From NCBI GenBank assembly GCA_035235625.1, contig CP141142.1:27662995-27726994 (forward strand): a stretch of DNA of 64,000 nucleotides. The letters are read 5' to 3'. Source of the stretch: Saururus chinensis. Its lineage: Eukaryota; Streptophyta; Magnoliopsida; Piperales; Saururaceae. The first letter of the stretch is position 1; each line of letters opens with the position of its first letter. A program made the translations under genes and the position numbers. The notes beneath the pieces are model-generated. The model made no database searches, had not been told where the DNA came from, and saw nothing but the letters and a program-made list of their open reading frames with translations. Shown in pieces: positions 5,555 to 57,887 of this stretch.

Positions 5555-6672
5555 TGATCAAAATGGCTCTATAATACACAAAATATCTCAAACTTTTAAG
5601 TAATACACATTATGGCCCTATGCACATGTAAACCTCCACATATGTAATATGAATTATCTAAAAAACCTCCACATATGTAATGTGAATTATCTAAAATGCC
5701 CCTTTTCTCATTTTCTTCCTTTTAACTTCACCAAGTCATTATTTCTCATTTTCACCAAGTCGGGCTTCAACTCCACCACCACCAGCTCCATTGCCTCTAC
5801 CATCAACTTCGTCATCTTAACTACTAGCTTTGTTTAATCCAATTTCGTCTTCACCTTCTCCACCACCATCACCTTTTCTTCCTCCCTCCTTTTGCGACCT
5901 CTTCCTCTTCTTTTTCCTTCTCTCCTCCCCCTCCTCTCTTTACTACCTCGGTCACCTCCTTCTTGTTGGAATCTAATAAGACCGGTTATATACTAGCTCA
6001 TGGAGTGATTACAAATTTGATTTTTTTTATTTATAAGCTTAAATCTTAAAAAAATAAACCCATAAATATGTTAAATTACTCAAAACCAAAAGTAAGTTTT
6101 ATTTGTACTTGATTATGAGCTTTTTCTAAAATTCATTCTTAGTTTTGAATAGTTTAATATGTTTATGAGTTTATTTTTTAAAATTTAAATTTGTAGAAAA
6201 AAAAATTAAAATTTTAATCACCCTATTAACTACTTTATAACTGGTCTTGTTACATTCTGATAAGGAAGAAGAAGAAGAGGAAGAGGAAGCGACTGATGAA
6301 AAAAAGGGGAGGAGAGGAAGAAAATGAAGAAGAAGAAAGAATAGAGAAGAAAAAGAAGTGGTAGAATAAATGAATAAGAGAAGGTGACGGTGGCTAAGGA
6401 AGTGAAGACGGAACAACATAAATGAAGTAGACGGTGGAGGCAATACAATTGGTTGCGGAGGAGATGTAACTTGTGGGAGAGGTGGTAGAGCCCGTGGTAA
6501 AAGGTGGTAAAACTAAAGCCATATCCGGTAGAAATGAGAAATTCTCAGTAATAGGGTGAAGTTAAAATGAAAAAAATAAAAAAATACGCGTTTTAGATAA
6601 TTTATGTTTAAAAAGGCCATTTCGTGTATATTGTACTTGAAAGTTTACGATCTTACTCGGCCATTGAAATCT
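5555..6672. mobile_element. Foldback element with ~500-bp inverted arms, copy 1
   Basis: The left arm (about 5555-6085) and right arm (about 6150-6672) are diverged reverse complements. Examples are AAGACCGGTTATA at left against TATAACTGGTCTTG at right, and a pyrimidine-rich left tract (5840-5970) against a purine-rich right tract (6255-6370). The centre holds TTGATTATGAGC. A relative lies at 57190-59075. No transposase is encoded. Long arms suggest a Mutator-like foldback element, but no clear target duplication was found. Its right end is about 150 bp from the SURF1 start codon. Confidence 0.65.
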
Positions 6673-6960: not shown

Positions 6961-9900
6961 GTTCGTTTCCCTCACTCCTTTTGATGCTTGGATCACTTTT
7001 TGTTTTGGCTTTCATTGGATCATTCTTATTGTTCATATTTATTTTGAATTGTTTTTCTAGGCTATTTAATTTGGTTGGGTTATTGAAATTTTTTATTTTG
7101 ATATGCCTGGTGTGGGTTGCTTTTCTGATACAGAGAAAGTGAGTAGCAGATGGTCAAAATGGTTCCTTTTTCTTCCTGGGGCCATCACCTTCGGTCTTGG
7201 TACTTGGCAAATTCTCAGAAGACAGGAAAAGGTTTGTCATTTTATTTCTTTTATTGGGTTTTCTGGGAGTTTCTTTCAGTATGCTCCATTTTTGCACGAA
7301 GAATTGAACTTATCTCTAAGATCAGCGTATATGCATATTTCTTGGCTATTTCAATGTTCTCTATATACTATTAACAATGGTTTTGCTGAGGTAGATGCAA
7401 ATGTTCAAAGCTTCCTTTATAAATATTAAAATGCATTATTTGGGATTTCAGGGTTCTTTATACTGTTTTTTAGTATCCCTCTAAGTGTTTACTGATTTCT
7501 GAATTAGGTTATACTAGCAAAATTGCATGTGCATATGCACGTGATACACCCCATAGTTAAGATGATTGAATATGTGAATGAGGTTCAGGCTGAAACCTCC
7601 GAAAAACAAAATATCCGTATCTTACAACCGTACCAGAATCACTTACAAGCCAATACAAATCACACATGCTCGGCTTCAACAGATACTACACCCGGAATCA
7701 CTCCTTATAAAATTTGATGAGCTATCAATTTTTCTTATTTGATGGAATTTCATTCTTGCTGTGATAAAGCCAACTTTCTATGATTTGAGATGAGTGCAAG
7801 GTTAGTATAGGATTAAAGATGCAAGTCATTATTTGTTTTAAGGGTAGTATGGCAATAAATAAAAATCTATCGCATCCCAAAATCCTGCTTCTCGCTTTTA
7901 ATAGTAGTATGATTCAATTAGTCCAGTTATTAGTATCCCAAATTTTTTGAAATTTCCATACAAACAGATACCTCTAAGCTTAATAGTATGAAATGCTAAC
8001 TATTTGTCCATATGTTCTAACTTTCGAAGTTTGTTCATGCTACAAAAATGCAAATGTTGATAATATTATTTTCTAAATTTTTGAATTTGATCCAATGCAG
8101 ACCCTTATCTTTGTCATTTCTTTTTTATCTGTCATTTGACTGTTTTTTTTTATAATTCTTATGAGTTTTCGTTGAACAGATACAAATGTTGGAATACAGA
8201 ATGAAGAGGTTGGAAATGGATCCTATTATCTGGAACGACAAAGATTCTTCTAGTATAGATTTTGATTCCTTGGAGTTCAGAAAGGTGTTGTGCAAAGGTT
8301 TTTTTGATGAAAGCAAGTCCATCTTTGTGGGTCCTAGATCTAGGAGCATTTCTGGTGTAACTGAGAATGGATACTTCATCATCACACCTTTTATGCCTGT
8401 TAAAAACGTGCCAGACAGGTATCAACCATTGGCGTAGATCTTCATGACATTCTATTGAGCATGCTACATAGTCAATTTTTGTGCGACAGGCCCTTCGCTT
8501 AGTTGTAATTTTTACATTGCTTCAATTTGATATTTAGTTAAAAGATAATATATATTGCTCATTTGCTTGCTTACCACTATTCTGTTCCACACTTCTAGTC
8601 ACCAATTTGTTAAGAAATTTTTTGTCAGTGTGCAGTCACCTATTCTTGTTAATAGAGGATGGGTACCACGTAGCTGGAGAGACAAATTTTTAGGAAATTT
8701 ACATTGTGATAACGTGGTTTTAAATGCAACACCAGTTGCTAACAATGAGAAAAAGCAAAGGCCATGGTGGCAATTCTGGTCAAAGAAATCTGAAGCCGCT
8801 CAGGTTACTTCCCCTCATTTTTTAAAATTTGTACGTGAACTTTTTTTAATCAGTTCAAAAATTCAATAAAATTTTCGTTGGAATCAGGACAAGGTACCTG
8901 ATATCATTCCTGTAGAAGTTAGTGGTGTGGTTCGTGAAAGCGAAAAGCCAAGCATCTTTGTTCCTGCAAATGATTCAACTTCTGGTCAGTGGTTTTATGT
9001 GGATGTTCCAGAGATTTCTCGAGCCTGTGGTCTTCCTGCAAACACTCTTTATATTGAAGATATCAATGAAAATGTTAGTGCAAGCCAGCTGTATCCTGTC
9101 CCAAAAGATGTCAATACGTTAATCCGCTACTCAGTTATGCCGCAGGACCATCTAAATTATACAATAACCTGGTATGCATTTATTTCTTGTTAAAATATGA
9201 TGTTTTGAGTGACATTGTGTTGTACCATTTGTTTTTTTCCTGAATGTTTTTCTCTGGTAATTGAGCCTCTGCTTAACTTGCTAATTTAAAGCAACATGAA
9301 ACTAAGTAGGTTGTTATATATATACACTTAATTGTAAATTAAATCCATTACTTTTGATAAGCTCCAGATCTTATCTTATTTGAGTTGTTTTGCTTACTGA
9401 CGTGACACTTCTTGATACTTTTATTTGTTTGGGCACTCTGCTTGTAATTTTTGCTTCTTTTGTGAATCTTGGAGTTTGTAAGGCTTGAATGTAAATAAGC
9501 TCAGCTAGCTAGTTTTCTTTTTGTGTAATTAAAATAATCATTGGAAGAACTATGAAGTATTGAACCCGTATCTTTTTGTGACCAGTATAAGAACAATTAG
9601 TGGAAAGATGAAGGAGTTTCCCATCATAATGTCTACATCAAGAGTTAGCCTTCATCATGTATCTTCTGCTTTAGTGATTGAGGAGCTAAGTAGACATATT
9701 AAAGATAGGGACCTGTGATGCATACTTGTTTTGGATGACAGTTTTAGTTGACGGGTGAAGGACTGTTAAATGCAAAGTGTGAAGTATGAAGGGAAGCCTT
9801 AGAATTAATTGAAGTCAACTTTAGAGAAGGTTGAGCAATGGGTGCCCTTTGTGATAGATGGATAAGAAGCACCAAGATGTGAGCAATTTGGCTAGTTAGC

Positions 9901-12900
9901 CTCAATTATCCATAAGGGAGGAAATATAGATAATGATGTAATGCATCATATAACTGCAGGATGGTCAAAGTTGAGAGCCAATACAGGTGTGTTGTGTGAT
10001 AAGTACACTTCAATTAGGGAAATGAAAATTCTAGAGGAAAACATGATGACCAACAATACTCTATTGAGCGGAGTGTTAGGCCCCAAAGAAAAGACATATG
10101 GATAAATTGAATGTAACTGAAATTAGGACACTAAGGTGGACGTGTGATATAACTTGAAGAGATCGAATTAGAATTGACTATTTAGAGAGAATGTAGGGGT
10201 TGTATCCTCAAGGGACAAGCTTTGAGAGATTAGGTTGCATTCTTATGAGCATATACAAGAAAGAACGGGTGATGTCACTGTAAGAAGTTAGAGGAATATA
10301 CAAGTTGAACATGCCACAAGTGGGAGAGGAAGACCTAAGAGGATTCTCAATGAAGTTAATAAGAAAAGATATGACTGTGCTATCTCTTACAAAAGAGCTA
10401 GTTAAAACAAGCAATGGTTGGGGTGCAAGATCTTGTGGGAGACCCCAAATTGTTGGGAAAAAGCATTGCCTGATTATGGTTATGGATTAAAATAATAATA
10501 GATGCATAATATTCTTGAACAGTCTAATTACACCAAGGTTCTATCTTGGCTAGATCTTGATGAGATCTTTGTCTTGTCGACTGGTGATGCAACTTCTTTA
10601 GGAAACAACTGCGTTCAAGATACTCCAAGATCCTTTTTATGTTCTTTCTTAGATGCTATTTGTTGTGAACTTTCCTTTAACTATGATTAGATTATCTATC
10701 TGTGTTGTTTTATATTATCTGATGCATGGGTTTGTTGAGCTGCAGTGTTCCATAGCATGTATGGGCTATACTAGTATCAGATAGGGGTGAGATGAGTGGG
10801 GATTGCAAATTAGTCTCAAAATATACTTCTACCGAATTTGGATCCATTTGGATATGTGAGTGCCCGGCACCTTATAAAGTCTCAACATCTTAATGAAAGG
10901 CTGAGATTGCATGATTTAAATATAGGTCATACTAGATGAAGGTAGCACAGGGAGAATTGAAAGAGGACTATAAAAAATGGTGTATATGGGCAGAGGACCA
11001 TAAAAATTGCTGTACCACAAAAGGATGGTTCTACCAGATGAAAGTGATACCAGGGAGAGTTGAAAGACGACTATTAAAAATGGTGTGTATTGAAGAGGAC
11101 CATAAAAAATTGTGTACCACAAAATTTGGGTTTAATTTGATGTGTGGGGTCCCTTGACGGTACCATGAAGAATGTCAGCTGTTGAAATAGGGACTGACAC
11201 TTAACATGATGCAATTGGTGAGTCCACACTTCATTGAGTTTGCAAAATTTACAGTTCAATGACCCTCGTGATTTGGCACAAATCTTCCTAGTCCCCTCTT
11301 TCCTTTCAACTGGGGCCTAGAATGTAGGGGAAGAGTTTTTGGTCCTCCTATTTGTTGTCCGCCGGGATATCATCCACCGGGTAGGAGCCGATCCTCCAGG
11401 AGGACCAAAAACTCTTACCAACATGGGCACCATTTTGCTTCTTGCACCGGTAGCCCACCAGATTGTACTGCTGCATAGTAGTATGCATATATATATATAT
11501 ATACACATTGCAAAGTGTCAAGTATTAGTATGTAATTTAGAGTAAAAACATATGATAAATGTGCATATAATGGTAAGTTTTGGAAATACTTTGATCTAGA
11601 AGATCACAAATGTCTACTGAGATCTTGATGAGATCACTTATTTTTTGGCAACTGATATCTCAATGCGTTCCAAGGTGGCCAACATGCATCTCCTAGTTTT
11701 CCTAAGTTGGCATCCCTAACTGTTAGACCAATGTTTTGTCATTCTCTTTAGATCTTCACTGCATTAATTTGGATCTTATGTTAGTTTGCTGACTAGCTTA
11801 TTAGGAGATTTTAGCTTAGCTCTCATTTATGACATTTAGAAGTTATCCAAGTGATATGGAATTTCTATGAAAGGGTTTATATAAGTCTGATATACAACAT
11901 ACAAGGAGTAGCAATCACACGATGTAGCTCCTTGTGGAGATAGGAGGCAAGGAGATAATACTAGGGAAAGCTGGATGAAAGGGCTTGGGGAAATAAATAG
12001 AAAGGGGAGAAGTATTGACAAAGAGGAAGGGCTTGAAAAAAAACCTATGAACTGTATTGTGTAACTTCCGAAAAATCACATAGTGGACTTGTGCTTTCGG
12101 CTGATGCCCTACATATATAGATTAGGCAAAGCCTGTTCCAACTATTATCAGAATTCCTATTTCTAGTAACTTAGCAAACTGTAATAGAACTAGGAAATTA
12201 AGTCATAATGCTAAGCCAACTCAAGATTGGCCCCCCTGTTGTGGGCCATAAGGGTCATATCATACACTTGACATTTGCTAATGTAAAACTTATAGATATA
12301 ACCTCTCGCACAATGGGACTTTTTATTGTCATGAATGTTTTTGTTGCTATAAATGTTGGAACATAAATCACGATTAAAAGACATATTGAGACAGAAAATA
12401 TGAAGAGATTTTGTGTAGTTTTTAAGTTAGATGAGAATGTGTAAAATTTGAAAATAGATTTAAGAAATGAGAAATTGAAGAAAAACTGGTAGAAATGGCT
12501 TGGGCATGTACTATAGAGATCATCTACGTGACCTGCAAAGAAATGTGATGACAAATTGGATGTTCCAGAATATGAGACAAAGGTTGAAGTAGACTTAGAA
12601 GAGTTAGTGATAAAATACGTGACAAATTGGTATTATTAAGGGAGCCAGGTCTGTGCTGCAATTTAAATGGCTGGGATCGCTTTTCGGTTTTGACCCACAG
12701 ATCCCTGCCTACACTTTTGGAACCTCTCTCACAACTGGAAGAGATTGAACCAACTCAATTAGGCTGGCCCCAATTCTATTTTTATTTTCTATGTTCAGTT
12801 TTTGCCTTCTTTTGCCCCTAAGTCATGCACAAGGAACATGGAGATGGAAATATGTCAATTTTTAACAGAATGAGCTCTGTGTTATGCAATTTGGATTTTA

Positions 12901-15900
12901 AGGGGAAGTCTCAGCATTTTTTTTTTTTGTTCGATGAAATGCACAAGTGTACTCAATCAGTTCATGCTTGAACCCAAGTAGCTATTGTTTCCATTCCGAA
13001 GCTGAGTCAAAATCAATCAATGAGTATATGATGATCTATTGGATGTCAAGTATATTAAAAAATAATTTGTTGTTGACTAAGCATTCTTAGTTCAGACTGT
13101 TTATTTCCAGCAACATCCCCTGTTTTTATCCTTCACCACATCAGATCAGTTGAAGTCACTCCACTAGGAAGTGGGCAATCTCACTGATGGAAATAATCTA
13201 CCAGAGTTGTCTCGTGAGAGTAGGCACTCAATTGGAGTCCATTTGATGAAGAATCTGAAACTGGCAATGATTTTTGATGGACCTATGATTTACTAAGGGC
13301 TTTCAGGAGCAAGGTATGATCGATGGCAAAGGGCTATATGGAGATTGCTTTCTTTGTAGTTTGACAAGCATAAGAGGGCATACCAGGCAACAAGAATGAG
13401 TCATAATTGTGAGAGGGCAAGATGAAAGCTTGTGGCCGACACACGTGACAGACTAGTTAAAATGATCAAAACTGCTGGAACACATGCGTATTCATAGGGC
13501 TAACAGAGAGGACTCCCAACGTAAACTATTCAAATATAAATTAGTAAGTACCACAGGCATTCAACTATGAAATAAAAGTTGAAGCATTTTGGCTTTTCTA
13601 GTGCTTGAACAGTGCAAGTAAAGGCGACCACCTTCAAATTGATGTTATGTTGATAGTTTCGTGGAACTTACGGGCCTTTGGACTTTGCATGAAAATTGGG
13701 GAATAAGGTTCTCTTCAGGCTCTTAAACCCTTTGAACCGGTTCAACTTGTTCATTGTTTTTTTATCGACACACTCTTTGTATTCATTTGAAATCATAAAT
13801 TTCTGATAATAAATACATTTTTGTGCATAAGAAATCTCCTAACAAGGTCCCATGGTCCCCAAATTAAATTTGCAAAAAATGAATCTCCACTATTCGAGGA
13901 GCATTTCTCCACTATGAGGGTTTGGTATCAAATGAAGGTGGAAGATTTTCTTGTTCCTTGGTGAAGATGAGCAAAGCTGCATAAGAGGTCTTTAACAACA
14001 TTTCTACTGCTCTATGCAGCATGGCTATTTCTTCTTGGATATTATCTCTTCTCATGTCCTTGATCCCGGTAGTGGGACTGTTGCAAATGATATGCAGAAA
14101 TGAAGGAATCTGACTGTAAACTCATGCAACCATCTGAATATCAAGTATCACTAGAGTTTTTAAGAATAAGGGTAAATTCAAAGGCAATCGAATAAATGAA
14201 GCAAGCTTCATGCTGTGTTCTTCAAGGACAAGTTATAGTAGACAACAGAAAGAGTGATAAAGTGAAGGGTAAGGGAGCTAAGAGCTACTAATCATATGGA
14301 GAAAATGATTGGACAAATCTCCAAGCGATTGCGTTAAGCATACAGGTGCAATCAGGGACAAAACGAACATGATAGAGGATGATAAACTGTTCTACTTCAT
14401 GCCGGGTTTGCAAACATGGGTACAAAATGATGTACGAAGAAGGGAAGTGGAGGACCTCATTGCAGTGGCAAATAACATGGCAGACTTCAAACAAAATTTT
14501 GTCTTGCAAGGGAAGAAGGGTGACAAATCATTCTCTAAGGAGGGTGGCAAGGACAAGGGCAATGAGTAATTAGGTAGGCCGAACAAAGGTGTAAGTTGTT
14601 TCATATGCAATGGGCCACAATGTGCTAAGGAGTGCCTAAAGAGAGAAAGGTTAAATGTTATTGTTGTTGCTGAAGACGCAAGGCTGAGTATGAAGACTTA
14701 GCTTGGTTGGCCCCTTTACAATGCATGGGTGCATTCAGGTGCTCCATTCCTCTTCAAAGGGGGTTGATGTGGGTCATTGAAAGGACTTGCACTTTGGGGA
14801 GTGGTTCTCCCAAGGACTTAGTTGATTGGAGCAGCCAAGAGGGTGCATTATTGGAGCAATTTGCAATCTATGTAAGCAGCAGGTGTTGTTAAGAAAGATT
14901 AAGGTTGATGTGGAGTCTTTGCCCAAGACATCTTTATACTTACCCATTGTGTGATGGGAAGAATTGGCTACTTGCTTGATGGGTTCAAACAAGGCGGATG
15001 CTTAAAATATTTAATTGGGGCACCTAAAAAGTACGAGGTTCGACGAGGGTGTGAAAGGCATCAAGTGGGGGAGGCTTGTTAGAACTTTAGACGCTGAATA
15101 GGCATGGGGGCCAAACAACTTTTTAGCCTTGGTGTGCAAACAAGCAAGGCATACACCCTTTGAGCCAAGGGTGCAAAGGTTTGGTAGAATGGAGCATTGG
15201 TGAACAGATTTTTAAGTCCTACTCGGAGTGGGACTCGATGGTGGGCTAGGTGCTATCAACATAGGGGGAGGTCCTATGCACGTTGAACTGATGTGGGAAG
15301 ACTCCTACTTAGAGTAGGATTTGAATGCAGGGTCAGATTTGTGGACAAATGTGGGCAGCTATGCCTATACGTATGAATAGCGGGCTTTTCACAAGACAGA
15401 TGGCTAATGTGCACGCTGAAGAAGGCTTGATTGGTTGCTAGTTCATTAGAAAGTGTCCTAGTACAACTAAGAGTATGCTCAGAGGCCTAGTGCAAGTGGG
15501 AAACCTTATCACAAAGTTGTATGCAAGTAACACTGGTTAAGATAACAAAATCCTATTAAAACAAGGACTTCATGTGAGAAGATGATGTAGCCAAGACTCC
15601 ATATAGTGTTTTGGGTGGGATTGTGTGTAAGTCTTCTAGTTGTAATGGGTAATGTTACTTGAGTGATGAATTGTAATAAGGACAAAAGAGTTTTAGTAGT
15701 ATTAGGCTTCCTTGACTCCTCTCGTCTATATAAGAGGTGGATGGGCTGATTGAGAAAGTGACCAATAAGGGAAAACACTTCTAAGGTGGGTTGTGAGTAT
15801 TGAGGGTGAGTTGGGCAGGCTTGACTTCACTAAGAGGTGTTGTCCTATGTAAGTGCATGTTGTTTCTTGGGTTTGGAAGTGAGCATGGGGTGTTGAATAA

Positions 15901-18900
15901 GAGGATTTGGGGCATAGCCTCTTTTTCTTATCTCTTTCTTGCGTGTGTTTGTTACGAAAAATCGGGTGAAAGTAAGGCGGTAAGGTTACTGGTTGCGGGG
16001 TTTGACCATGCCATCATGGGGTAGATTCCCATCCCGCCATCAAGTCCCACTTCAAGTAGGACCTAGAAATCTATACAAGACTACATGAAGGAGTTTATGT
16101 CGAAGGATAACAAGTTGTTCTACTTCATACCAGGTTTGCAAATATGGGCACAAAACGAGTTACAAAAAAGGATAATGGAGGACCTTCTTGCAACCATTGT
16201 AGTAGCAAACAACTTGGTAGACATCAAATAGAATTCCCTTAGGTAAGGGAAGAGGTGTGACAAGTGAGCTGTTAAGAAGGTCAGCAAGGGTAGAAATAGT
16301 GGCAAGGACAAGGGTAGCAAGCAGTTAGGTAAACTGAACTAACAGGGACAAACTTGAGGATGGGAATTTGCCCCGTGATGTCCTAATTGCATCGGGCAAC
16401 CAATAGCCTTACCGCATTGCTTTTACCCACCTTTTTGTAACCAACACGCATGGAAGAGATAGGTAAAAGAGGTTCTATACCCAAAACCTTTTATTAAGCA
16501 ACCTGTGCTTGAGATTACAATGAACAAGGCCCACTACTTACTCCCAAACTGAAAAAACAACTTGCACTTGCACGGGATAACACTTCTTGGCGAAGTCAAG
16601 GTTTGCCCAACTTACCCTCAACACTTATAACCCTCCTTAAAATTGTTTCCCTTTACTGACTGCCCTTTGAATCAGCTCATCTGCCAATTATATAGAGGAG
16701 AGAGTCCAGGGAAGCGTAGTACTACTAGAACTCTTTTATCTCTATTACAATTCGTTACCAAAGTGACCCTACCCATTACAAATAGGAAACCTACTCACAG
16801 TCTCACCTAGGACAGCTATCCTAAGTCCCAACCTAGCTAGACAATAGCATGCGCCATTCTTCAAGTCCTACTTCGTCCAGTAGCCTTCAGGTCTCTTACT
16901 CAAGCTTGAAGTCCTCAGCTCGCATGTTTCTGGTCTCAACAAAGTTTTGGTTGTATCCACCTCTTACATGGAGTCATTTTTTCACTAGGATTTGGTTGTC
17001 TTGAGCAGTCCTGCTTGTATACAACTCTGTCATTGGGTTTTCCCACTTGTACTAGGCCTTTGAGCGCACTCCTAGTCATGCTAGGATACTTTCTAACGAA
17101 CTAGCAACCAGCCAAGCCTTCTTCAGCATGCACATCAGCTGTCCGTTTTGCTTAAAACCAGTTGTTTGCGAGTCTTGGCATGGCTAGCCGCATGTACCGA
17201 CCAATCCGGCCCCACATCTAAATCCTACTCCAAGTAAGAGTCTTCCCTCATTAGTCCAAGGTGCATATCCCCCTATGCTGATAGTGCCTGGCCCCCATCG
17301 AGTCATACTCTGATTAGGACTTGGAATTTGTCTGCCAATGCTTTGCAATGTCAAAGCTTTGAAAGATGTCAATTTCTACTTCATGTCGAGCTTGCAAACA
17401 TGGGCATAAAACGAGTTATGGATAAGGGAAGTGGAAGACCTTCCTGCAACCAGCGCAGCAGTGGGCAACTTAGCAGACTTCAAAAAGAATTTTGTTGGAC
17501 AAGGGAAGAAGGGCAACAAGTCATCTGCTAAGGAGGGCAATAAGGGAAAAAACAATGGCAAAGACAAGGCAGCGAGCAGTTAGGCAGGCCAAACAAAGGC
17601 TTCAAAAAGAATTTTGCCAGACAAGGGAAGAAGGACAACAAGTCATCTGCTAAGGAGGGCAATAAGGGCGAAAACAATGGCAAAGACAAGGCAACGAGCA
17701 GTTAGGCAGGCCAAACAAAGGTTTTGAATGTTTTATATGCAATGAGTTGCACCATGCTAAGGAAAACGATATTTACAAAAGAAAACTTACACTAAATACT
17801 CACTTGGGTTTTAACGGGACAAAACAAGTGAGTCCAAGTGAACTTTATGTAAGGCTCACATGTTTTGTCCAATTAAAACCTAAGTATAAGTTTTTGGTGT
17901 GTGACTATCACTACCCTCATGCTTAAGGAGTGCCCAAAGAAAGAAACGTTGAATGATATTGTTGTTGTAGAAGAGAAGGCTGAGTTTAATACTGAAGACT
18001 TAGTCCGGTTGGCCCCTTTACAGCTCGTGGGGTGCATAAGATCTTCAATTGGGGCACATGGGAAGTACGGTCGACGAGGGTGTCGAAGGTTTCAAGTAGA
18101 GGAAGCTTGTTAGACTCGAGCTGCTGAATATGCTAAGGAGTCAGATTGCACGTAAGCCTTGCTGTGCGGACAACCAAGGCATACCGCCCTTTGGGGCAAG
18201 GGTTCAAAGCTTCGGCAGTGAAGAGCGATGGCAGATAGATTTTCAAGTCTTACTCGGAGTGGGACTTGATGGCAGGTTGGGTGCCATCAGCACAGGGGGA
18301 GACTAGACACCTATGCATGTTGGACTCAACTGCAACTTCCCCTCAATTACCTGCATCGAAGGACTCAACACTTAAATGCACCCATACGCTCTAAAGGGCC
18401 CAACCAGACTATGCCTTTTGTATTGAACTCAGCCTTGTCCTCTTCTGCAACAACAATTGCATTTACCTTTGATTTTTGACGACTACAATTGCCAAGTATT
18501 TGCATGCTGCACCAATGACACACCCCATGGCCACTACGACCAACCAAGTGTTTGCTTTGGCTAAAAACTCTACTCAAGTGTTCCATGTTTGTTGATGACG
18601 CTAACCATCTGTGTACTTGCGCATTGCACCTACAGCCTGCCCCTTGGCTACCTCGCGCAACCAAGTCTTTATTTTGTTTGGCTGAAGTCTCCCCTTCAGC
18701 CAGATTTATTGATGACTCCATCCATATAGGAACCTTGCTCACTGCCCCAACAACATGCTTCTTGGCTTCCTCATCCAGCCAAGTTTGGAATTGCTTTGGC
18801 CAAAGACTCCCATTCAGTCTGGTTTGTTGTTGATGATTCCGGCCATTTGTGAACCTGCACACTGCACCGGCAAAATGCCCCCTTGGTTGCCTTGCCCGGC

Positions 18901-20676
18901 CAAGTCTAAAATTTCTTGACCAAAAACTCCCCTTTGGCATGATCTTTTTGTTAACAACTCTAGTTGTCTATGAACCTGTGAACTGCACTAATAGAATGCA
19001 CTTGGCTGCCACCAAACAGCGAAGTATTTGGGAGGACCATCTCCCCTAGTGCAAGTTCATTCAAGGACCTGCACCCAACCATGTTGCTGAATTTGGATTT
19101 TTCTTCAGTATGGTGCACAATATCTCCTAGCGTCGCAGCACCTTCATCTGCCCACCTAGTCTGCCAAAGATCTCGCAAACACCTTCAACTTTCTCGCTCT
19201 GAACCCGTCCAAGAGCCCTCAAACTCCTTCAGCAATCCTGGCAGTGGAACCAACTACCACAGGGACAAACTCTAGGATGGGAATTTGCCCCGTGATTTTG
19301 TGGTCATATCGTGCAACTACTTCAATGCCTTGCTTTCACCCAACTTTTCGCTCACCAACGCATAAGAAAGAGATAGATAAAAAGGCTCCGCCCTAAAACT
19401 TTCGATTCAGCAATCGGTGCTTGCAATTACAACGAACTCTACCTTGCTCCCAAACAGAAGGAACACCCTTGCACTCACACCAAACTACACCCTACGAGGT
19501 CTGGCCTTGCCTAACTTGCCCACAACTTTCAGCTCTCCAAGAATTGATTTTAATGAAGCTCTGGGTGCCGCCTCAACTAGCCATTCGCCCCCTTATATAA
19601 GAAAGGGTGTAGGGAAGCTAGTACTACTAGAATTCCTTTGTCCATGTTACAATTCATCTTCCAAGTGACCCTGCCCATTACAACTAGGAAATTTGCACAC
19701 AATCCCACCTAAGACAACTATTCGGAGTCCCAACCCAGCTAGGAAACATGCGTTTTCCTTCAAGAGTCTTGCATTATCTAACAGCCTTCAGGCCTCCTAC
19801 TCTGACTCAAAGTCCTCAGCTCGAATGCCTCTTACCTCAACAAAGTCTTGTCTATGTCCATCTCTTGTATGGAGTCCTTGTTCTGTTTGGATTTGGTTAT
19901 CTTGAGGAGTCTTGTTTGCATTCAACTCTGTTACTAAGTTTCCCACTTGCACTAGGCCACATAGCACACTCCTGGTTGGGCTAGGACATTTGTCAATGAA
20001 TTTGCAACTAGCCAAGCCTTCTTCAGCGTTCTCACTAGCCATCCGTCTTGTGCAAAGCCCATTACGTGTTCATCTGGGCGTGGCTGCCTGCATGTGCTTA
20101 TGAATAGGCCTTGCATCTGTCTCCTACTCCAAAATAGAAGTCTTCTTGCATCTGTCTAATGTGTATAGGACTCCCCTTATGCTGATAGCGCCCAACTCGC
20201 CATTGTGTTCTACTCTAAGTAGGACATGGAAATCTGTCTGCCAGCATGCCAATGATGTTGATGTTTTGCATACTTGCCCCGAAGTGTGTATGTGTTGGCT
20301 GTCTGCACAATCAGGTTGAGAAGCTGTTATGTCTTCATTAGTTGTCTTGGGGTGCCATCGATTTATGTTATATGTTTCATTTTTAAGAGGTAATGCTTAA
20401 TTTATATGTTACTCCCACGAGCTGGATTAGTCACTCTTGTGGCTACGCAAGTGATTAAAATGGTTTAATTTGTTTTTAAATTTAAAATTGTATGTTCTTT
20501 GATGTCAGTTCATTTATCCAAACATTTGAAGTTACGCTTTGGCATGTATTGACTATAAGATTTGTTTCAGGTATTCCCTGTCTGCTGCCGTTACGTTTAT
20601 GGCTATGAAAAGGTTAAAAGCGAAGAACAGGTTTTCTGCCATAAATCAGAGAGTTGCGGAGCACCCAAATCCCTGA
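6822..20676 (+). CDS. SURF1: SURF1-like cytochrome c oxidase assembly protein, six exons
   Basis: Joined exons 6822-6960, 7134-7231, 8180-8418, 8629-8803, 8888-9171 and 20571-20676 give 1041 bases (346 residues plus stop), with GT-AG introns throughout. Plant SURF1 proteins are about 350 residues. SURF1 is an inner mitochondrial membrane protein that helps assemble the Cox1/heme a module of complex IV. Residues 1-46 are Ser/Thr/Arg-rich and lack acidic residues, like a mitochondrial presequence. TM1 lies at about 56-73 and includes the family hallmark FGLGTWQ; VNRGWVP is at 166-172; GVVRESEKP and FVPAN lie near 230-245; and TM2 is at about 308-326 (ITWYSLSAAVTFMAM), followed by a Lys/Arg-rich tail. 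Reading frame and motifs are intact, so I take it as functional. The oddity is the 11.4-kb last intron, which splits the TM2 tryptophan codon. Confidence 0.95.
7134..7231 (+). CDS. SURF1: SURF1 exon 2 (first membrane helix)
   Basis: 98 bases after acceptor TGATACAG, ending at donor AAAAG|GTTTGT in phase 0. It encodes residues 47-79, including WFLFLPGAITFGLGTWQIL, the first membrane helix and the conserved GTWQ motif. Confidence 0.93.
7232..8179 (+). other. SURF1 intron 2
   Basis: 948-base GT-AG intron with no recognisable element or RNA gene. A short palindrome GTGCATATGCAC occurs near 7527. Small open frames here match nothing I know and are not annotated. Confidence 0.7.
8180..8418 (+). 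CDS. SURF1: SURF1 exon 3
   Basis: 239 bases encoding residues 80-158 plus two bases of codon 159, starting IQMLEYRMKRLEMDP. It covers the start of the intermembrane-space domain, including SIFVGPRSRS and NGYFIITPF, both family-conserved stretches. The acceptor is TTGAACAG and the donor CAG|GTATCA. Confidence 0.93.
8629..8803 (+). CDS. SURF1: SURF1 exon 4 (NRGWVP motif)
   Basis: 175 bases. The acceptor TTTGTCAG|T was chosen because it keeps frame and gives DSVQSPILVNRGWVP, matching plant SURF1. A second AG a few bases downstream would lose frame. It ends GCTCAG|GTTACT in phase 0, covering residues 159-217. Confidence 0.92.
8888..9171 (+). CDS. SURF1: SURF1 exon 5
   Basis: 284 bases encoding residues 218-311 plus two bases of codon 312, from DKVPDIIPVEVSG to YTIT. 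It covers the rest of the intermembrane-space domain and the beginning of TM2. The donor ACCTG|GTATGC splits the tryptophan codon. Read-through into the intron would add a short tail (WYAFISC) and stop. Confidence 0.93.
10085..10510 (+). mobile_element. RTE-type LINE 3' fragment
   Basis: Translations carry the end-of-ORF signature of plant RTE LINEs. MDKLNVTEIRTLRW near 10100 is followed about 200 bases later, in another frame, by SGRGRPKRILNEVNKK, corresponding to the family's GRGRP-KxTW tail. Stops and frame changes interrupt it. It ends near an AATAATAATA tract (about 10490-10500), consistent with the simple-repeat tail of RTE elements. Only the 3' end is present, as is usual for 5'-truncated LINEs. 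Confidence 0.6.
10931..11134 (+). repeat. 102-bp tandem duplication
   Basis: Two adjacent copies, starting at 10931 (ACTAGATGAAGGTAGCACAG) and 11033 (ACCAGATGAAAGTGATACCA). Both contain AGAGGACCATAAAAA and GTACCACAAAA. They differ at roughly one base in seven. Function unknown. Confidence 0.75.
11332..11415. repeat. Perfect 18-bp inverted repeat (hairpin)
   Basis: Arms at 11332-11349 (AGAGTTTTTGGTCCTCCT) and 11398-11415 are exact reverse complements separated by 48 bases. In the SURF1 pre-mRNA this would form a stable hairpin. It may be a tiny MITE or the root of a larger foldback. Its perfection suggests it is recent or maintained. Confidence 0.7.
12460..12800 (+). mobile_element. Second RTE-like LINE 3' scrap
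   Basis: One + strand frame reads KWLGHVL followed by PAKKCDDK, resembling the RWFGHVxRRP...APVxxCD region near the end of plant RTE ORF2, with stops interrupting. Downstream sequence to about 12800 may be its 3' region. Upstream boundary not seen. Confidence 0.45.
12801..14289. other. Intronic DNA, mostly unassigned
   Basis: No gene or complete element recognised. The last few hundred bases (about 14050-14289) probably belong to the gypsy gag remnant that becomes recognisable from 14290. Confidence 0.35.
14290..15076 (+). mobile_element. Ty3/gypsy gag remnant with zinc knuckle
   Basis: The gag core is recognisable from DDKLFYFMPGLQTWVQNDV, then a basic spacer, then a CCHC-type knuckle region beginning CFICNG. 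The end of the internal region carries a purine-rich tract (AAGTGGGGGAGGCT) immediately before the LTR at 15077, the expected polypurine tract. No pol is present between them. It is a broken, non-autonomous relative; related pieces recur at 16050, 17354 and, inverted, 18331-19257. Confidence 0.7.
15077..16040 (+). mobile_element. Gypsy-family LTR, + orientation
   Basis: It begins TGTTAGAACTTTAG directly after the polypurine tract. Inside are TCCTACTCGGAGTGGGACT, a promoter-like TATATAAGAGG near 15728, and a terminal CCCATCCCGCC near 16040. Reverse-complement relatives lie at 16345-17353 and 19258-20330. About 960 bp, non-coding. Confidence 0.7.
16050..16335 (+). mobile_element. Gypsy gag fragment
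   Basis: It carries DNKLFYFIPGLQIWAQNEL, the same gag core as 14380-14440, followed by the basic spacer. It is a piece of the same family, old and broken. Confidence 0.6.
16345..17353 (-). mobile_element. Gypsy-family LTR, - orientation
   Basis: Reverse complement of the 15077-16040 LTR. The segment ATTACAAATAGGAAACC near 16780 and the TATA-region AATTATATAGAGGAG near 16690 match that LTR when inverted. It lies about 300 bases from the + copy, forming a long inverted repeat. Confidence 0.7.
17354..18107 (+). mobile_element. Gypsy gag fragment with duplicated spacer, holding a MITE
   Basis: The gag core (ELWIREVEDLPATS) is followed by a Lys/Gly-rich spacer that occurs twice in tandem (about 17480-17580 and 17600-17705). 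The knuckle region is interrupted by the 150-bp MITE at 17764-17914. It ends with the purine tract AGTAGAGGAAGCT just before an LTR start at 18108. Confidence 0.6.
17764..17914. mobile_element. Small inverted-repeat MITE, copy 2
   Basis: The termini AACGATATT... and ...GACTATCACTA, with long imperfect inverted arms (AAAACTTACAC, GGTTTTAACGGGACAAAACA), match the family of 2885-3034 in reverse orientation. The flanks CATGCTAAGGA (17753-17763) and CATGCTTAAGGA (17918-17929) look like an 11-bp target duplication with one later change, which fits a Mutator-type element. It sits inside gypsy gag, so it arrived later. Confidence 0.7.
18108..18330 (+). mobile_element. Gypsy-family LTR start, + orientation
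   Basis: It begins TGTTAGACTCGAGC and matches the first ~220 bases of the 15077 LTR, including TTACTCGGAGTGGGACTTGA. It then meets inverted internal sequence of the same family at about 18331. Confidence 0.65.
18331..19257 (-). mobile_element. Gypsy gag region with ~120-bp tandem repeats, - orientation
   Basis: On the - strand one long open frame (18365-18940) ends with AIVVAEEDKAEFNT, the same post-knuckle peptide seen on the + strand at 14660 and 17950. Upstream of it are about four diverged ~40-residue repeats, recognisable by the spaced VCRFTNG, VSKVPIW, RCNAQVHRW and WCSMQ segments. The repeats, rather than selection, may explain why this frame stays open. Virus-like fossil, not a host gene. 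Confidence 0.6.
19258..20330 (-). mobile_element. Gypsy-family LTR, - orientation (second inverted copy)
   Basis: Reverse-complement relative of 15077-16040. It opens GGATGGGAATTTGCCCCGTG, shared with 16357-16376, and includes CTTATATAAGAAAGG near 19591 as the TATA region. It ends close to the SURF1 acceptor at 20570; the right boundary is approximate. Confidence 0.65.
20571..20676 (+). CDS. SURF1: SURF1 exon 6 (second half of TM2 and tail)
   Basis: After acceptor TTTGTTTCAG, the first base completes the Trp codon, giving YSLSAAVTFMAMKRLKAKNR and then NQRVAEHPNP before TGA at 20674-20676. The match to the SURF1 C-terminus and the phase fix the join to exon 5 despite 11.4 kb between them. Confidence 0.92.
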
Positions 20677-27758: not shown

Positions 27759-28831
27759 TATAAGGACATAAGTGTCCTTATGTTATGTATTGGTTTATTT
27801 ATGTGATCAAAATAATATCATTGATGTGTAATTTTAAGTTACTTTATATCTAAAAATGGGGTAAAAAGGAATACTTAAGTCCTTGTTTTTGTCAAGTAAA
27901 AACATCTACACACATCACATTCACCTATTTTAGGGTAAAAGATACGTGAAAGAAGGGTGAGGATTAGAGGTTTTTATATTGCAAAATAAAAAATCTAGTC
28001 AGAATGATCGATTGTTGATGAACTATTGAAAAATATCCGAAAACTATAAGAGCGATAGATCACTTCTGTGAATGATCGATCAACACCCAAAAACACTCTT
28101 TGTTAAATGAAGTTAATAGTTTATTGATTGATTTTTGGGTCAACAGATACATTGATGGAAGAGTCATGAGGTAAAGGATTGGACATGATGGAGAGAAGAC
28201 CTAAAAAACTTAGAGAACTTGTGTGGAGTTGCGCTCATGAGGTTTTGAGAAAGTTTTCTTCTAAAGTTTAAAAATCTCTACCTAAATTAAAAAGAGTGAT
28301 TAGAGGTGATAAGAGAACACAAAAACACAAGTGGGACAAGGTGTTTGCTAAATATTGTTGTTGAGAAGATCAAGGATTGGAAGATTCATTCCAAATGGAG
28401 GAGATGAAAAATCTACTTTGATAAAAGAGCAAAAAGAGGATAAAATCAAGCATGCCGATAAACAATCAAGTGGTTGATTCAGAATTAAAGAGTAGTGTGG
28501 AGAACCAGCCATTTGAAGAAAAATCAGTCTTTTGCCATTGTAATTGGTAATTGTGTAATCTTAGATTTACATAGTGCATAATTAATTTGGACAGTGTCTT
28601 GGGGTTTTTCTGTAATTGGGTTTCAATGTAAAAATTCTTGTGTATTTGTTTGATGACTTGGTTACCAAATTTTTGTTAGAACACATTGGAATTAGGCATG
28701 CTAATTTGGACAAAATATTTGATTATTTTCTTTAGAAAGGGGGAAGATAAATCTTGTAACTTAATTATGAGTTATAGGCACTTTATTTTTGTCCATTTAT
28801 CTATGCCACACACGTAGTTCACAAACCAACA
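27759..28831 (+). mobile_element. Copia LTR, + orientation (3' LTR of the preceding element)
   Basis: It runs from TAAGGACATAAGTGTCC to CACAAACCAACA, about 1.07 kb. Its reverse complement is recognisable at 31760-34060, 34200-34905 and 45509-46681, for example the TGTTGGTTTG start and the GTGTGTGGCA word of those - strand copies. Non-coding. Confidence 0.7.
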
Positions 28832-31759
28832 ATGTCTTGTCAACACCTACGTAGGTTAAACATAGTCAAGATGATGAGGGTTAATAAAACCTGTAGGTTG
28901 TTTGAAAGACTTCCTCTTCTACGTATTCATTTAGAAAAACACTTTTGACATCTATTTGATATACTTTGAATTTTAAATGATAATTCATAGCAAGAAGTAA
29001 TTTAATAGATTAACTTTAGCAGCATGAACAAAAGTTTCATCAAATCACTTCCTTCTACCTTTATAGCCTTGAGCAATAAATCTTGTTTTATTTCCTACCA
29101 CATTACCTTGTTCATTTGTCTTGTTATTATAAATCCACTTTGTACCTATGACATTGTATTATTTAAGTCTAGGAATAAGGAACCATATATCAATCTTAGT
29201 AAATTAATCTAGTTCCTCTTGCATTGTATTAATCTAATTTTTATGTTGAAGTGCTTCATTAATTTTCTTTGGTTCTATAAAAGATACATAACAAGAAATT
29301 TTTATTTGTTCTTCCAATTGATGTCTTGTTTTCACTCCTTCATTGATGTCACTAATCATATTTGTTTAAGGATGGTCTTTTTGAACCTAATTAGGTACTT
29401 GGCTAACTTGAACTTGTGGTTCTTGCTCTTCTTCATGAGCTTCAACATCATTTATATCATCATCATGAACATCCACATGTTCCTGTTCTTTTTTATCTCT
29501 ATCACTAAACACATTTGCGGAATCATCATAATCATAGCAATCATCAATTCTTTGCTTTCCTTTTCCATGTTAAATGTTTTGAGTTTTAATTTGTTTCATC
29601 ATTTATAACTACATTAAAGGACTCCGTGACAGTTTGAGTTCTTTTGTTAAAAATCATGTATCCCTATTTGTCAAAGAATATCTAAGGAAAATTTCATCAT
29701 CACTTTTACTATCAAATTTTTCTAGGGCTTCTCTATCTTTTAAGATCCGACTAGGGCTTCCAAAGACTAAAAAGTTTGATAATGGTTTTTTACCTCTCCA
29801 CAACTAATAAGGTGCCAAACAGGGCTTCTAAAGACTCTAAAAAGTTTGATAATGGTTTTTTACCTCTCCACAACTAATAAGGTGTTTAGACTGTACTAGG
29901 TCTCAAATAGACTATACTGAAGGTGTATGTTGCAGTGTTCATAGCTTCTGCCTACCAAATGCTTTTCATTTAGCTTTACCTAGTCATGTCTTGAATAGTC
30001 TTATTCTTTCTTTCAACTATTTCATTTTTTTGTGGAATTTTAGGGGCGGAGAACTAATGATGAATTTTATATTTGTCACAAAACTCTTTGGACCTAAAGT
30101 TAGTGAATTCACCACCTTTGTCACTTCTAATATTGTGAATGTGTAGGCCACTTGTTTTTTGTATGGTAAGGACAATTATTTTGAATGTGTCAAAAAAATC
30201 TAGCTTCTCTCTAAGAAAATCTACTTAAGTAAACCTTGATAAGTCATCCACCATCATGAGGATGGACTTTTTACCACCCAAACTAGTTGTTTTCATTGGT
30301 CTCATAATGTCCATGTGTATCAACTCTAATGGTATTTCAATTCTCACTTGTTTCAATTTTTTATGATGGGATTTTGACTATTTACCTTTCTGACAAGCAC
30401 CATATACAAAGTTTTCAGGAGTTATCATAACAAGGTCACCTATAATGATCTCTTCCTTTGTTATTTTTGTTAAATCTCTAAAATTCACATGTCATAACCT
30501 TTGATACCACAAGTCTTATCAACCAAGGACAAGTTTGTAAAATAAACAAGATCTAGTAAATAACAATTATTATAAGCTCTTAAACCTTTTACACAAATCA
30601 TTCTAGATTTGTCAATGATATAACAAGCCTTCTTTGAAAACTTCATTGTAAAACCAGAGTGACATATTTGACTAATGCTTAAGAGACTAGCTTTCAAACC
30701 ACTAACATACAAGGTATTAGCAAAATCAGGTAATCTAGAAACTTTCAATGTGCCTACCCATCTATTTTTATGGTACTTTCATATCAAAATGTAACTTTGA
30801 TATCATAGTTCTCTACCAAATTAATAAACATAGATTTGTTATTGGTCATGCGCTTTGAACATCAACTATCTGAGTACCACATGTTAGAATGTTCAGTTTT
30901 AATGGCGGTGTGCACTATATAACATTTTACTTCTTTTTTTACACAAATTGTTTTTGTTTTCACAAATTTTTGAAGATCTCTCAAGTTTTTATTATGTTTT
31001 GCATTCTTAAGAGTTTTTGCATTAACTTTTTGTTCTTTTTTGTGATTACCATTATGGGAAAACTTAAGAGAGTCTCTTAGTGAATCATGTGTGTCAGCCC
31101 TATGTCCAAGATTTTAAACTTTTGTCTTATGTTCCCTTAAGTTTCTCCCCATCAATGAGATTTATCTAAGCAAATCAATTTTAGCATTATCACTAACACT
31201 TTGTAGTATCTTAACTAATTTGTTCTTGTTTGGCTCAAATTTAGTCACAAGTTCATTCTTTAGCAATTGTTTTCCTACCAAAAGTTGAAAAGTTGAAGTA
31301 CTACCTTCATTATCATACAAATTTATAGCCTTAACAAATTTAGTGCTTCCTAGGAAACTTTGTATTCTTATGTTCCACATACCCTAAATCATTCTTGTCA
31401 CTTCCATATTGTCCACAAGAGAGAAGTTTATCAAGTTTTTCTTGCCATTGACATACTCTTTCAATTTTAAATTAGATGTTTTCATATATTCTTCAAAATT
31501 TTCAATTTTCTCAAGTAATTCAAGATTTTTTGTATTACATAAGTATTTGTTATGCACAAGTTGAGAATTCTCATGTTTCATAGCACAAAAGTTTGCTCTA
31601 TGCATTTTCAATTTATAAAAAATATGATTATTCTTGCCACAAAAAAAAATTGAAACAAATAAAGACAAGCTAAACATGTTTTAGAATTCCATGGCAATAG
31701 AAAGCACAATTCAATACTAGACAAATCTTAAAAATATTCAAATAACCTCAGCTACCACT
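28832..31759 (-). mobile_element. Ty1/copia internal region, - strand
   Basis: On the - strand, in order: a gag-like coiled region (31677-31162, with KMHRANFCAMKHENSQLV), gag-pre-integrase (30748-30485, with LYVSGLKASLLSISQICHSG), integrase (about 30400-29750, MMVDDLSRFT), and reverse transcriptase (about 29700-28832). Many breaks. Its primer-side border with the LTR at 31760 carries a TGGTAGCTGAGG word where copia primer sites lie. Confidence 0.75.
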
Positions 31760-34060
31760 TGTTGGTTTGCTAACTATGTGTGTGGCATAGACTGATAGAG
31801 AAACATAAAGTGTCTCTAACTTACAATTAATGTTATGCCCCAACTTTTTCGATTAACTTAAAAGTTGGAATTTCGTAAAATTTGTAAGCAAAGAGAGCCT
31901 AGATCAATTGTGTATAAATAAGAAACTCTTAAGAGTATTAAAGTACAAAAGTACAAAATTTCAAAAGTTAGGGCGATGCACACCATGAAATCATTTCAAC
32001 ATAAATATACAATGCATACAAAAATATTGTTAAACAAAATCCGGCGTATCGGCCCATTTTTCCACAGCAGGGGAATGATAAATCATATAACAAATTCATA
32101 ACTCAGAATTTAAAGTCAAACCATTTGCATAGCTTAAAACAAATACATTTCATTCACAGAATGTTGTCAATACTAAAACAATATACACCCGTGCTCCTGG
32201 GGCAATAGGATCTGAAGAAGAGGGGTTTTCCCATTATATTCTAACTCCTGAGCGTGCTAAAAGCCTCATTAGGTAGCATCTAAGAGTAATAAACTCCGAT
32301 AGTTCTTGGGTTGCATGCTCAAGAACTACCCATCAAATTCCAAATTTTTAAAATGAAAGGAATAATCAAATGATATTCAAATAATTAGTGATAAAAATAT
32401 GATTTAGAACCACCTACTCTCGTGAGGCCTTCGCTCTTTGTCTGCTTAAGTGCAGCAGGCGGAAATTCCTCTTGCACTTAGATAATCTCCTTGTCCAGCT
32501 TGGGTAGAACCTCCCCTAGCACTAAGATAATCTCCTTGTTTGGCTTGACCTTCCCTAGTGGTAGGACGATCTCTGCTTCTGGCCCGAGAGTGGTAGACAA
32601 GGCCTCTTCTTGCCCCTGGCCATTCACCCCTTTTAGAGATGCTAACTTGAAAAATGGATCCCCGCGATGTAGGGCATCCTTGAATTAGTTAGAATGAGTT
32701 TTTGAATGGAAGGAAAAGGGCAAGAAATGGCTTAGAAACTCATGTTAAATGCATAGAAATGGGAATAAAATAGAGAAAATGGTAGGAGAAAGGAGCTAGG
32801 GGCGACCCCTCTCCTTGTATAGATGAAAGTCCTCGTTGGATGCGCACCATGTGGCGCATATTCAATCATCAACCCATAGCCATACCGTGGGTTGTCTTGC
32901 CTCGATGCGGTAGGCCATGTCCTGCCACATTGTGGCAGGTGAGAGCTGGCGTTCTGGTGTCAGCTTGTAAAACTTCATAATTTGCTACCCTAATCGGATT
33001 CGTGTGTTCTTCATTCTGTGGGCTCGTATCGAGGAGCCCTTCGAAACAAGACCATAGAAGGGCATGTTTCCCCGTGAATGCAACCTAGGTCCAGACCATG
33101 GCACACTTAACGAGGCCATAGCCCATAACTCAAGTGTCAAAATTTTGCTTTCTTGGGCCTGCTACAATTATCTCTCTGAGCCCTATGAACGATCTATTAG
33201 GTTAAAAAAGGAGATTGAGGCTAAAATAATGTCAATTTGATACACAAAGCTTGTTGGACCAAAAACTTAAAATAAGTTCAAAGGTTTATTTTTAAAAAAA
33301 ATTCAGGGTGTTACAATTAAGTTACAAGATTTATCTTCCTTTTTTTTTTAATCATAGATTTTGTTCAAATTAATGTAATGGGAATTTGCAATTAAATCAG
33401 CAAGCAAACACATAAGAATTTTTATATGTAAACCTAACTAAGGGAAAACCACATGACTACAAAATTACCAATTACAAAGACAAAAAGACCCAATTTTCTT
33501 CAAACTACTGGTCCTCTACGCCAATCTTAAATTCTAAAGCAACCACTATTTGGTTGTTTATAGGTCATAGCTTGATCTTTTCCTCTTTGTGCTATTAAAT
33601 CAAAGTATATCTTTCATCTTGGAATAAATCTTCTATTCTCCTTGATCTTCTCAATAATAATCTTCAACAAACACCATACCTCATATGTGTTTTTGTGCTC
33701 TTATCTCACCTCTAATCATTTATTTTTAATTTAGGTAGAAACTTTCTCACTCTAGAAAATTAATTCTCTCAAAACTCTATTAGAGAAACTCTACACAAGC
33801 ACTCTAAGTTTTCTAGGTCTTCTCTCCTATCTTCATCACATCCCAATCCCTTTATATAGACTCCCATGTCTTAAAAGGAATATGACTCTAACTAGGAATC
33901 CAAATCAAATGAGAAAAGTTTAATTTAAGCAACTCTGCACTCAATCAAGTGATCATTCCACAGGGTGACTGATCGATTCCTATTCCTTTCCCTTATGACT
34001 CTTCCATCAATCGACCCTCATCGATAAACTCTCGGCTTTGTTTAACAAAAAGTGTTTTAT
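31760..34060 (-). mobile_element. Copia 5' LTR (- strand), holding a nested LTR
   Basis: It begins TGTTGGTTTGCTAACTATG in + coordinates and continues after the nested 31831-33315 insertion with the same LTR sequence seen at 45600-46500 (CAAGAATTTTTATATG, then CTTCTCAATAA). About 810 bp once the nested element is set aside. Confidence 0.65.
31831..33315 (-). mobile_element. Solo gypsy LTR with ATTAA target duplication
   Basis: Both ends are clean. ATTAA at 31826-31830 and again at 33316-33320 flank a 1485-bp TG...CA element inside the copia LTR. Read on the - strand it starts TGTAACACCCTGAATTT and ends TTGGGGCATAACA, typical of Tekay/Del-like gypsy LTRs. A TATA-like CTATACAAGGAGAGG lies near 32815 in that orientation. 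No internal region, hence a solo LTR. Confidence 0.75.
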
Positions 34061-34199
34061 GAATTACACATTGGGAGTAAGTGACTCAGAAGTGTAGTCA
34101 TGGTAATGGAATATTTATCTTCTTGTGCTTTTGTGCATGATTATATATGTTATGGTTTGTTTTTATTCTTATGTCTTACAATCAATGAAATGATGTTCA

Positions 34200-34905
34200 T
34201 GTTGGTTTGTTGGACAATGTGTGTGGCACAAATAAACTAAGAAAATAAAGTGCCTCTAACTCTCAATTACTTTACAAGATTTATTTTTCCCTTTAAACAA
34301 AATAAACCATTTTTTTTTCAATTTAACATTCCTAATTCCAATGTGTTTTAACGAGAAATTTGCAATCAAATTAGCAAATAATTCATACAAGAATTTTTAC
34401 ATTTTAACCCAACTAGGGAAAAAGGATAGGATACTCCACCTATATCATCTATGCACTATGTAAATTTTAGATTACATAATTATTGATTACATAGACAAAA
34501 GACTCATTTTTCTTCAACTGGTTGGTTCTTTGCACCACTCTTAAATTTTAAATCAACCACTCCTTGGTAGTTTATCGATCATAGCTTGATATTCTTCTCT
34601 TTTGTTCTTACTTGATCAAAATAGATCTTTCATTTCCCCCTTAGAATAAATCTTCTATTTACTTGATCTTCTCAATAACAAGTTTTAGGAAACACCATGT
34701 GTTTTGTGTATTAATCTCACCTCTAATCACTCTTTTTGATTTATGAAAAAAAATTTCTTATTCTAAAAGACAACTCTTTCAAAAGTCCATGAAAGAGACT
34801 CCACACAAGTTTTTCAGGTTTTCTTGGTATTTTTATCATGTTTCAACCCCTTCTTATAGATTCGCAAACCCTAAAGAAAAAAGTATATAATTTGGAATTG
34901 TAATC
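34200..34905 (-). mobile_element. Copia LTR fragment, - orientation
   Basis: It begins TGTTGGTTTGTTGGACAATG and follows the copia LTR family (GTGCCTCTAACTC, CAAGAATTTTTACAT, CTCACCTCTAATCACTC). It sits beside but separate from the 31760-34060 LTR. Confidence 0.6.
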
Positions 34906-57000: not shown

Positions 57001-57887
57001 TGGCCCTTCATAGATTCTGAGGCGCATTAATTTCTCATTTCTCTACAAAGGCATTTGAAGTAAGATGTCATTTTTTTCACCTTCAAAGGTTTTGTTAAAT
57101 GACAGCTTCAAAATATAAGGTAAAATGTCATTTCATTTCCCCACAAAGGTGCAATAAATGCTCTCTTTTCCCCCACAAAGGAAATTTTTTACCAAAATTG
57201 CCCTTAGGATATAACATTACACAAAATGTTTTATATTTTCACATAAAACATAGAATCACCCAATGCACATATAAACCTCCCCACATGTTCTTAATTATAT
57301 AAAATATTTCCTTTGATTGTCTTCTTTATAATTTCACCAACCCACTACTTTTCATTTCCAGTAACTCTGGCTTCGACTCTACCGCCTCCGCCACTTACTC
57401 CACCACTTATGTTATCGATTCCACAACCTCTTCCACTAACTTCGCCATCTTTGCTATGGACTCTGCTTGATCCAACTTCATCTTCACCTCCTTCTCCACC
57501 GTTGCCTTCTCTCCTCCCCTCGTTTGCCACTTCCTCTTTTTTTTCCCCTCTCCTCTCCTCCCCCTCCCCCTCCTTCTCCCTTCATCCCTCCTCTCCTCTT
57601 CTCCTCCTCTCTCTCCTTCTCTTCTTCCCCTCCTCTCTATCCTTCTCTTCTTCCCCAACTCTCTATCCTCCTCCCCTTTTACTTCTTTGTTGCCTCTTCT
57701 TCCTCCCTCCTGGAATCTAACAAGACTAGTCACAAACTAGTTGGTGGAGTTATTAAGAATTTATTTATTTTTCTACAAGCTTAAATCATAAAAAATGGAC
57801 CCATAACCATGTTAAACTACATAAAATTAGAAGTGGGTTTTATTTTTACTTGATTATGAGCTTTTTCTACTGTTATGCAAAACGTCA

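Follow-up and report, generated by a model that had tools for sequence, protein, structure and literature searches.

Does the presence of LTR copies in opposite orientations within a single intron make that intron a source of hairpin RNA and of small interfering RNAs, or is it the trace of transposons that settled there and decayed? This question is raised by a 64,000-nucleotide stretch of the Saururus chinensis genome (positions 27662995–27726994 of contig CP141142.1; hereafter the window), which was analyzed together with the genome of 516 Mb in 11 contigs. A preliminary description of the window had placed three LTR copies, A (+), B (−) and C (−), inside the last intron of SURF1, and had proposed that the A and B copies would fold into a stem approaching 1 kb, from which siRNAs against the whole transposon family could be produced.

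The LTR and gag cluster in the last intron of SURF1

SURF1 lies on the + strand of the window. A genome search with PF02104 yielded three candidates, all scored, of which two were matches, both located in the window (8183–8398 and 8633–9181). Joining the exon ending at 9171 to the exon starting at 20571 kept the frame, and the spliced C-terminus (8888–9171 plus 20571 onward) matched the SURF1 domain PF02104 with E=5.3e-12. The uninterrupted frame and the match across the junction identify 9172–20570 as the last intron, 11.4 kb long and with a repeat content of more than 6 kb. All three LTR copies were confirmed to lie inside it, in the orientations described. Besides them, the cluster contains a truncated fourth LTR (D), three gag fragments on the + strand, a gag/internal piece on the − strand and a MITE-like palindrome, arranged 5′ to 3′ as follows.

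9172–20570, +: last intron of SURF1, 11,399 nt, GT...AG; exon join keeps the frame and matches PF02104
14333–14741, +: gag fragment 1, C-terminal half with zinc knuckle, carrying a stop and deletions; tblastn with the open gag of locus L042, E=2e-39; repeats D5, D11 and D13
15062–15078, +: purine-rich PPT-like tract directly 5′ of LTR A; the motif also precedes the LTR start in other copies such as L014 and L049
15079–16040, +: LTR A, left hairpin arm
16028–16074, −: short inverted segment from the 5′ region of an LTR, attached to the end of A; 83% to 18235–18281, inverted
16070–16342, +: gag fragment 2, in the hairpin loop; tblastn with the L042 gag, E=5e-27
16343–17353, −: LTR B, right hairpin arm, 5′-truncated
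17365–18037, +: gag fragment 3, containing a 122-bp tandem duplication and the MITE-like element; tblastn with the L042 gag, E=7e-23; repeats D2 and D11
17759–17915, +: MITE-like palindromic element inside gag fragment 3; 73 genome matches, in many places on both strands
18110–18326, +: LTR D, truncated fourth LTR with PPT-like motif and TGTTAG start; 73% to 14996–15289; absent from the preliminary description
18369–19251, −: part of the C copy, comprising internal sequence and the end of gag
19252–20330, −: LTR C, second antisense copy; not paired with A among the 25 commonest pair classes of the whole-region fold

LTR A starts with TGTTAG at 15079, which corrects the previous start of 15077; at the 5′ end of the LTR, about 115 nt are missing from B and about 35 nt from C. 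One part of the MITE-like element resembles positions 2912–2983 of the window. On the minus strand, 18365–18967 forms an open frame of 200 codons from stop to stop, in which an internally repeated pattern is apparent by eye and for which no Pfam match above the cut-off was found. Seven ORFs from the repeat cluster likewise gave nothing above the curated Pfam cut-off, and no Rfam match at gathering score was obtained anywhere in the window.

Comparison of copy ends revealed a purine-rich tract followed by TGTTAGAC at the LTR start, and a conserved LTR end. Some copies of the family carry a PBS-like stretch beginning TGGTTCC, reminiscent of a putative tRNA-Asp site. The gag ORF of L042, located elsewhere in the genome, encodes 247 amino acids with matches to Retrotrans_gag (8.7e-16) and Ty3_capsid (1.9e-11), and the three gag fragments of the window match it with the E-values listed above, in keeping with a Ty3-type Gag. 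As this gag, from a related subfamily, is still open over 247 codons (L042:1413–2153), decay has gone less far in some relatives than in the copies of the window. A PPT-like motif was found 183–571 nt 3′ of gag in 10 of 13 gag-bearing loci, which include two overlapping pairs and correspond after merging to 9 of 11 distinct loci. The order gag, PPT, LTR occurs in the window, where gag fragment 1 is followed by LTR A within about 0.4 kb, and also in L014 and L049; in L072 the LTR precedes gag. Since gag is followed directly by the PPT-like tract and the LTR, the layout resembles that of TR-GAG elements, non-autonomous LTR retrotransposons that are taken here as defined in the available text of PMC9784723, with which the family shares a Gag-only coding content and the lack of room for pol. 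Unlike those elements, no copy in the window is whole, and a single element with two LTRs around one gag was seen neither in the window nor in the other genome stretches examined. Judged from these sequences, the family appears to be an old and divergent one, with a Ty3-type gag and a TR-GAG-like layout.

The preliminary description had called for an alignment of the LTRs as a measure of arm identity. Over BLAST-aligned columns, identity was 76.2% for A/B (524/688; K2P 0.30), 71.8% for A/C (346/482; K2P 0.37) and 73.2% for B/C (709/968; K2P 0.34), and a looser global alignment in which gaps opened freely gave 81.3, 77.7 and 78.4%, respectively. The likeness of A and B, aligned by BLAST in two blocks (E=2e-74 and 2e-61), is far beyond chance. 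That B and C are the LTR pair of one element is not supported, their identity being judged not above that of B with copies elsewhere (best 72%). Other copies of the family are old too, with a median pairwise identity of 0.72. Among at least 61 other places scored, at least four neighbouring pairs lay within 5 kb, all of them direct, and none had an inverted neighbour within 10 kb, the nearest inverted pair being 35 kb apart; places were merged by hand and each search considered the best 40 candidates, so that the counts are lower bounds. The inverted arrangement is therefore uncommon in the family, as far as seen.

Predicted fold and small-RNA targeting potential

For the RNA of 15077–17353, the minimum-free-energy structure was predicted at −1154 kcal/mol with 716 inter-arm pairs, G·U allowed, versus −644 to −689 kcal/mol for eight dinucleotide shuffles of the same stretch. 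When 14290–20572 was folded whole, pairing of A with B dominated (719 pairs) and no A–C class appeared among the 25 commonest pair classes, so A–C was discarded as the main stem. The strong folding that had been proposed is thus borne out by computation, but not a continuous stem approaching 1 kb: the longest unbroken A–B helix in the predicted fold, G·U counted, has 28 bp (15476–15503 with 17039–17066), and where small interruptions are tolerated the largest blocks comprise 249 and 241 pairs. Arm identity too low for pairing had been named in advance as an outcome that would undo the proposal. This did not prove to be the case, given the pairs retained in the whole-cluster fold and the number of 21-nt windows of arm A with at most four unpaired bases (589 of 944), a degree of pairing that, in this model and by the standards applied to miRNAs, would suffice for Dicer-like processing. 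Ten artificial head-to-head pairs made from other copies with the same spacer folded comparably (−0.40 to −0.53 kcal/mol per nt, versus −0.507 for A–B), indicating that the A–B hairpin is possible but not special. Exon circularisation or skipping through the A–B stem is not expected, because the two arms share one intron and thus enclose no exon.

Other inverted repeats were noticed in the window. A tighter one at 57764–58475 has arms at 57764–58046 and 58177–58475 (72–78%, about 130 nt apart) and related copies at 6022–6209. Several mutually inverted repeats of 62–112 nt involve 28190–28832 with 31759–34730 and 45596–46560.

The capacity of the arms to target related copies was assessed with 21-mers. 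No exact 21-mer was common to A and B, and one was common to A and C. Exact matches in 36 other copies of the family were found for 19 of the 944 21-mers of A (in 9 copies), 8 of the 989 of B (in 3) and 32 of the 1053 of C (in 14). When up to two mismatches were allowed, 295, 281 and 360 21-mers of A, B and C, respectively, had matches, and each arm reached 35 of the 36 copies. Judged by these matches, exact targeting of the family would be poor and loose targeting is conceivable. The suggestion of siRNAs against the whole family accordingly has weak support at best. The hairpin would probably yield few small RNAs, if any; their origin would be the blocks with better pairing, and their action mainly in cis.

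Strand bias and competing explanations for the cluster

Sense and antisense folds of the A–B stretch were compared. The antisense RNA was predicted to fold at −1025.5 kcal/mol with 660 inter-arm pairs, 49 of them G·U, and the sense RNA has 86 G·U pairs, so that the sense hairpin is 12.5% more stable (sense/antisense energy ratio 1.125; 1.132 for A–C). None of 22 control draws (21 distinct pairs; mean 0.971) reached 1.125. Among 42 further ordered control pairs (mean 0.992), one did so in the same direction and three in either direction, giving pooled frequencies of 1/64 and 3/64. When each arm was combined with 12 other copies, mean ratios were 1.026 for A, 1.075 for B and 1.073 for C, with 2 of the 36 combinations exceeding 1.125. 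These per-arm shifts roughly add up to the A–B ratio, so co-evolution of the arms is not needed, and selection for pairing beyond composition was set aside on the same ground. Transitions that keep pairing as G·U amounted to 73/122 for A/B and 64/92 for A/C (pairwise counts, no consensus), versus a null mean of 0.500 (s.d. 0.061) in 1091 ordered pairs of other copies, of which 5.1% reached 0.60, 1.0% reached 0.65 and 0.2% reached 0.70. Among 39 copies ranked by this asymmetry, C came 1st and B 3rd, and A was 25th from the negative end, so that B and C are the only arms to stand out. Nine segments could be compared with a null: six had the predicted sign (gag fragment 1, A, B, D, the C internal piece and C) and three did not (gag fragments 2 and 3 and the MITE-like element), and two short segments without a null were negative also. 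As the segment tests were mixed, strand asymmetry is for now not accepted as an established fact.

How, then, should the cluster be understood? That the A–B hairpin is a working siRNA source, with SURF1 pre-mRNA being diced and the family silenced elsewhere, seems highly improbable. The fold persists in the whole-cluster context, A reaches nearly all copies with up to two mismatches, and rice hairpins from two juxtaposed inverted transposons have been described (PMC3086885, available text); against this, the arms have no exact 21-mer in common, exact matches elsewhere are scarce for A and B, head-to-head pairs of other copies fold equally well and, the copies being fragments of an old family, little may be left to silence. 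The sense bias suggests another history, in which transcription-linked, strand-biased C-to-T change shaped the intron. A sense-strand C-to-T change would turn a G–C pair into G·U in the sense transcript and into an A·C mismatch in the antisense one; the arms would then decay through G·U rather than A·C in SURF1-sense RNA, and the sense hairpin would outlive its antisense counterpart. The energy ratios, with a single control in 64 reaching 1.125 in the same direction, the excess of G·U-keeping transitions over the null, the ranks of C and B and the shift exerted by each arm alone are all consistent with this history. We nevertheless consider it unlikely, since A alone is unremarkable, three of nine segments have the wrong sign and a further two, for which there was no null, were negative, a fraction of 0.60 is reached by 5.1% of null pairs and a ratio of 1.125 in either direction by three control draws, and B and C may have subfamily composition in common. 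The wider proposal that strand-biased mutation in transcribed introns keeps inverted-repeat hairpins selectively in sense RNA, so that old inverted transposons would stay foldable and Dicer-visible after DNA identity drops, is held to be more doubtful still; if the bias held in other genes, it would explain, in general and testable terms, why inverted repeats in introns, though old, stay foldable in the RNA that is made. The idea of sense-strand G·U retention was not found in the titles and abstract openings of the listed papers on wobble pairing, mutation bias and inverted repeats, and no claim is made that it is unpublished.

The transposon DNA, rather than the RNA fold, may be what matters: the intron chromatin would be silenced, and full-length SURF1 mRNA would need a reader of the IBM2/EDM2 type to avoid premature polyadenylation. 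In Arabidopsis and rice, long introns that carry transposons are known to show such dependence (PMC4417168 and PMC7145194, in the text available). The length and repeat load of the SURF1 intron fit this explanation, but no exact AATAAA occurs on the SURF1-sense strand of 14290–20330; plant polyadenylation signals are degenerate. We hold the chromatin explanation as possible, on a tentative footing, and it is compatible with the one that we prefer, namely that the intron is probably a graveyard of old transposons, with an RNA that is able to fold and is most likely removed and degraded together with the intron. Non-autonomous, TR-GAG-like Ty3 fragments would have gathered in the intron through separate insertions followed by rearrangement; the anatomy, truncations and divergence are directly visible in the cluster, and the order of events is likely rather than certain. 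The head-to-head placement of A and B allows unspliced RNA to form the imperfect stem computed above; this stem would most likely be spliced out and degraded, and the intron DNA treated as that of any intronic transposon. In favour of the graveyard are the 24–28% divergence of the copies, the old copies elsewhere, the truncated LTRs and gag fragments, a fold no better than that of the ten artificial pairs, and the lack of an exact A/B 21-mer and of an Rfam match in the window. Against it stand the strong absolute fold relative to shuffles and the many well-paired A windows, both predicted, together with the unusual stability bias towards SURF1-sense RNA and an inverted arrangement uncommon in the family.

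Comparison with known hairpin and intron systems

The SURF1 intron is a candidate member of kinds already known. That juxtaposed inverted transposons, with introns among the places named, can become small-RNA hairpins is already published (PMC3086885, available text). As in the rice TE-MIR hairpins of that work, two cognate transposons stand head to head and provide one arm each; unlike them, the arms here are LTRs of about 0.8 kb with 72–76% identity, and the locus is known from its sequence. According to the available part of PMC12825306, young hairpins are substrates of the Dicers that make siRNAs, with DCL1 taking over as mismatches accumulate, and Arabidopsis IR71 is a well-studied long inverted repeat whose dsRNA spans some 3 kb and has been shown to yield DCL products. 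The SURF1 intron shares with IR71 a long intramolecular fold-back RNA, predicted here and dominating the cluster fold, but not a long perfect or near-perfect duplex, given the 76.2% identity of the arms, predicted helices of at most 28 bp including G·U, and the absence of a common 21-mer. The 28-bp helix of the predicted fold does fall within the proto-miRNA standard given in the same source, which asks for a stem of 25 bp or more and allows up to 10 mismatches. Maize genes and transposons commonly contain structured regions to which small RNAs match (PMC10760457, available text). With G·U counted, a strong stem is predicted even for LTRs of no more than about 76% identity, so hairpin candidates are poorly filtered by DNA identity alone. 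Finally, in the available text of PMC7145194 and PMC4417168, intronic transposons need IBM2-type factors for full-length transcripts; SURF1 resembles such genes in that it is otherwise intact and carries transposons within one long intron, a likeness judged here on transposon content alone, and in this company it represents one more transposon-laden plant intron.
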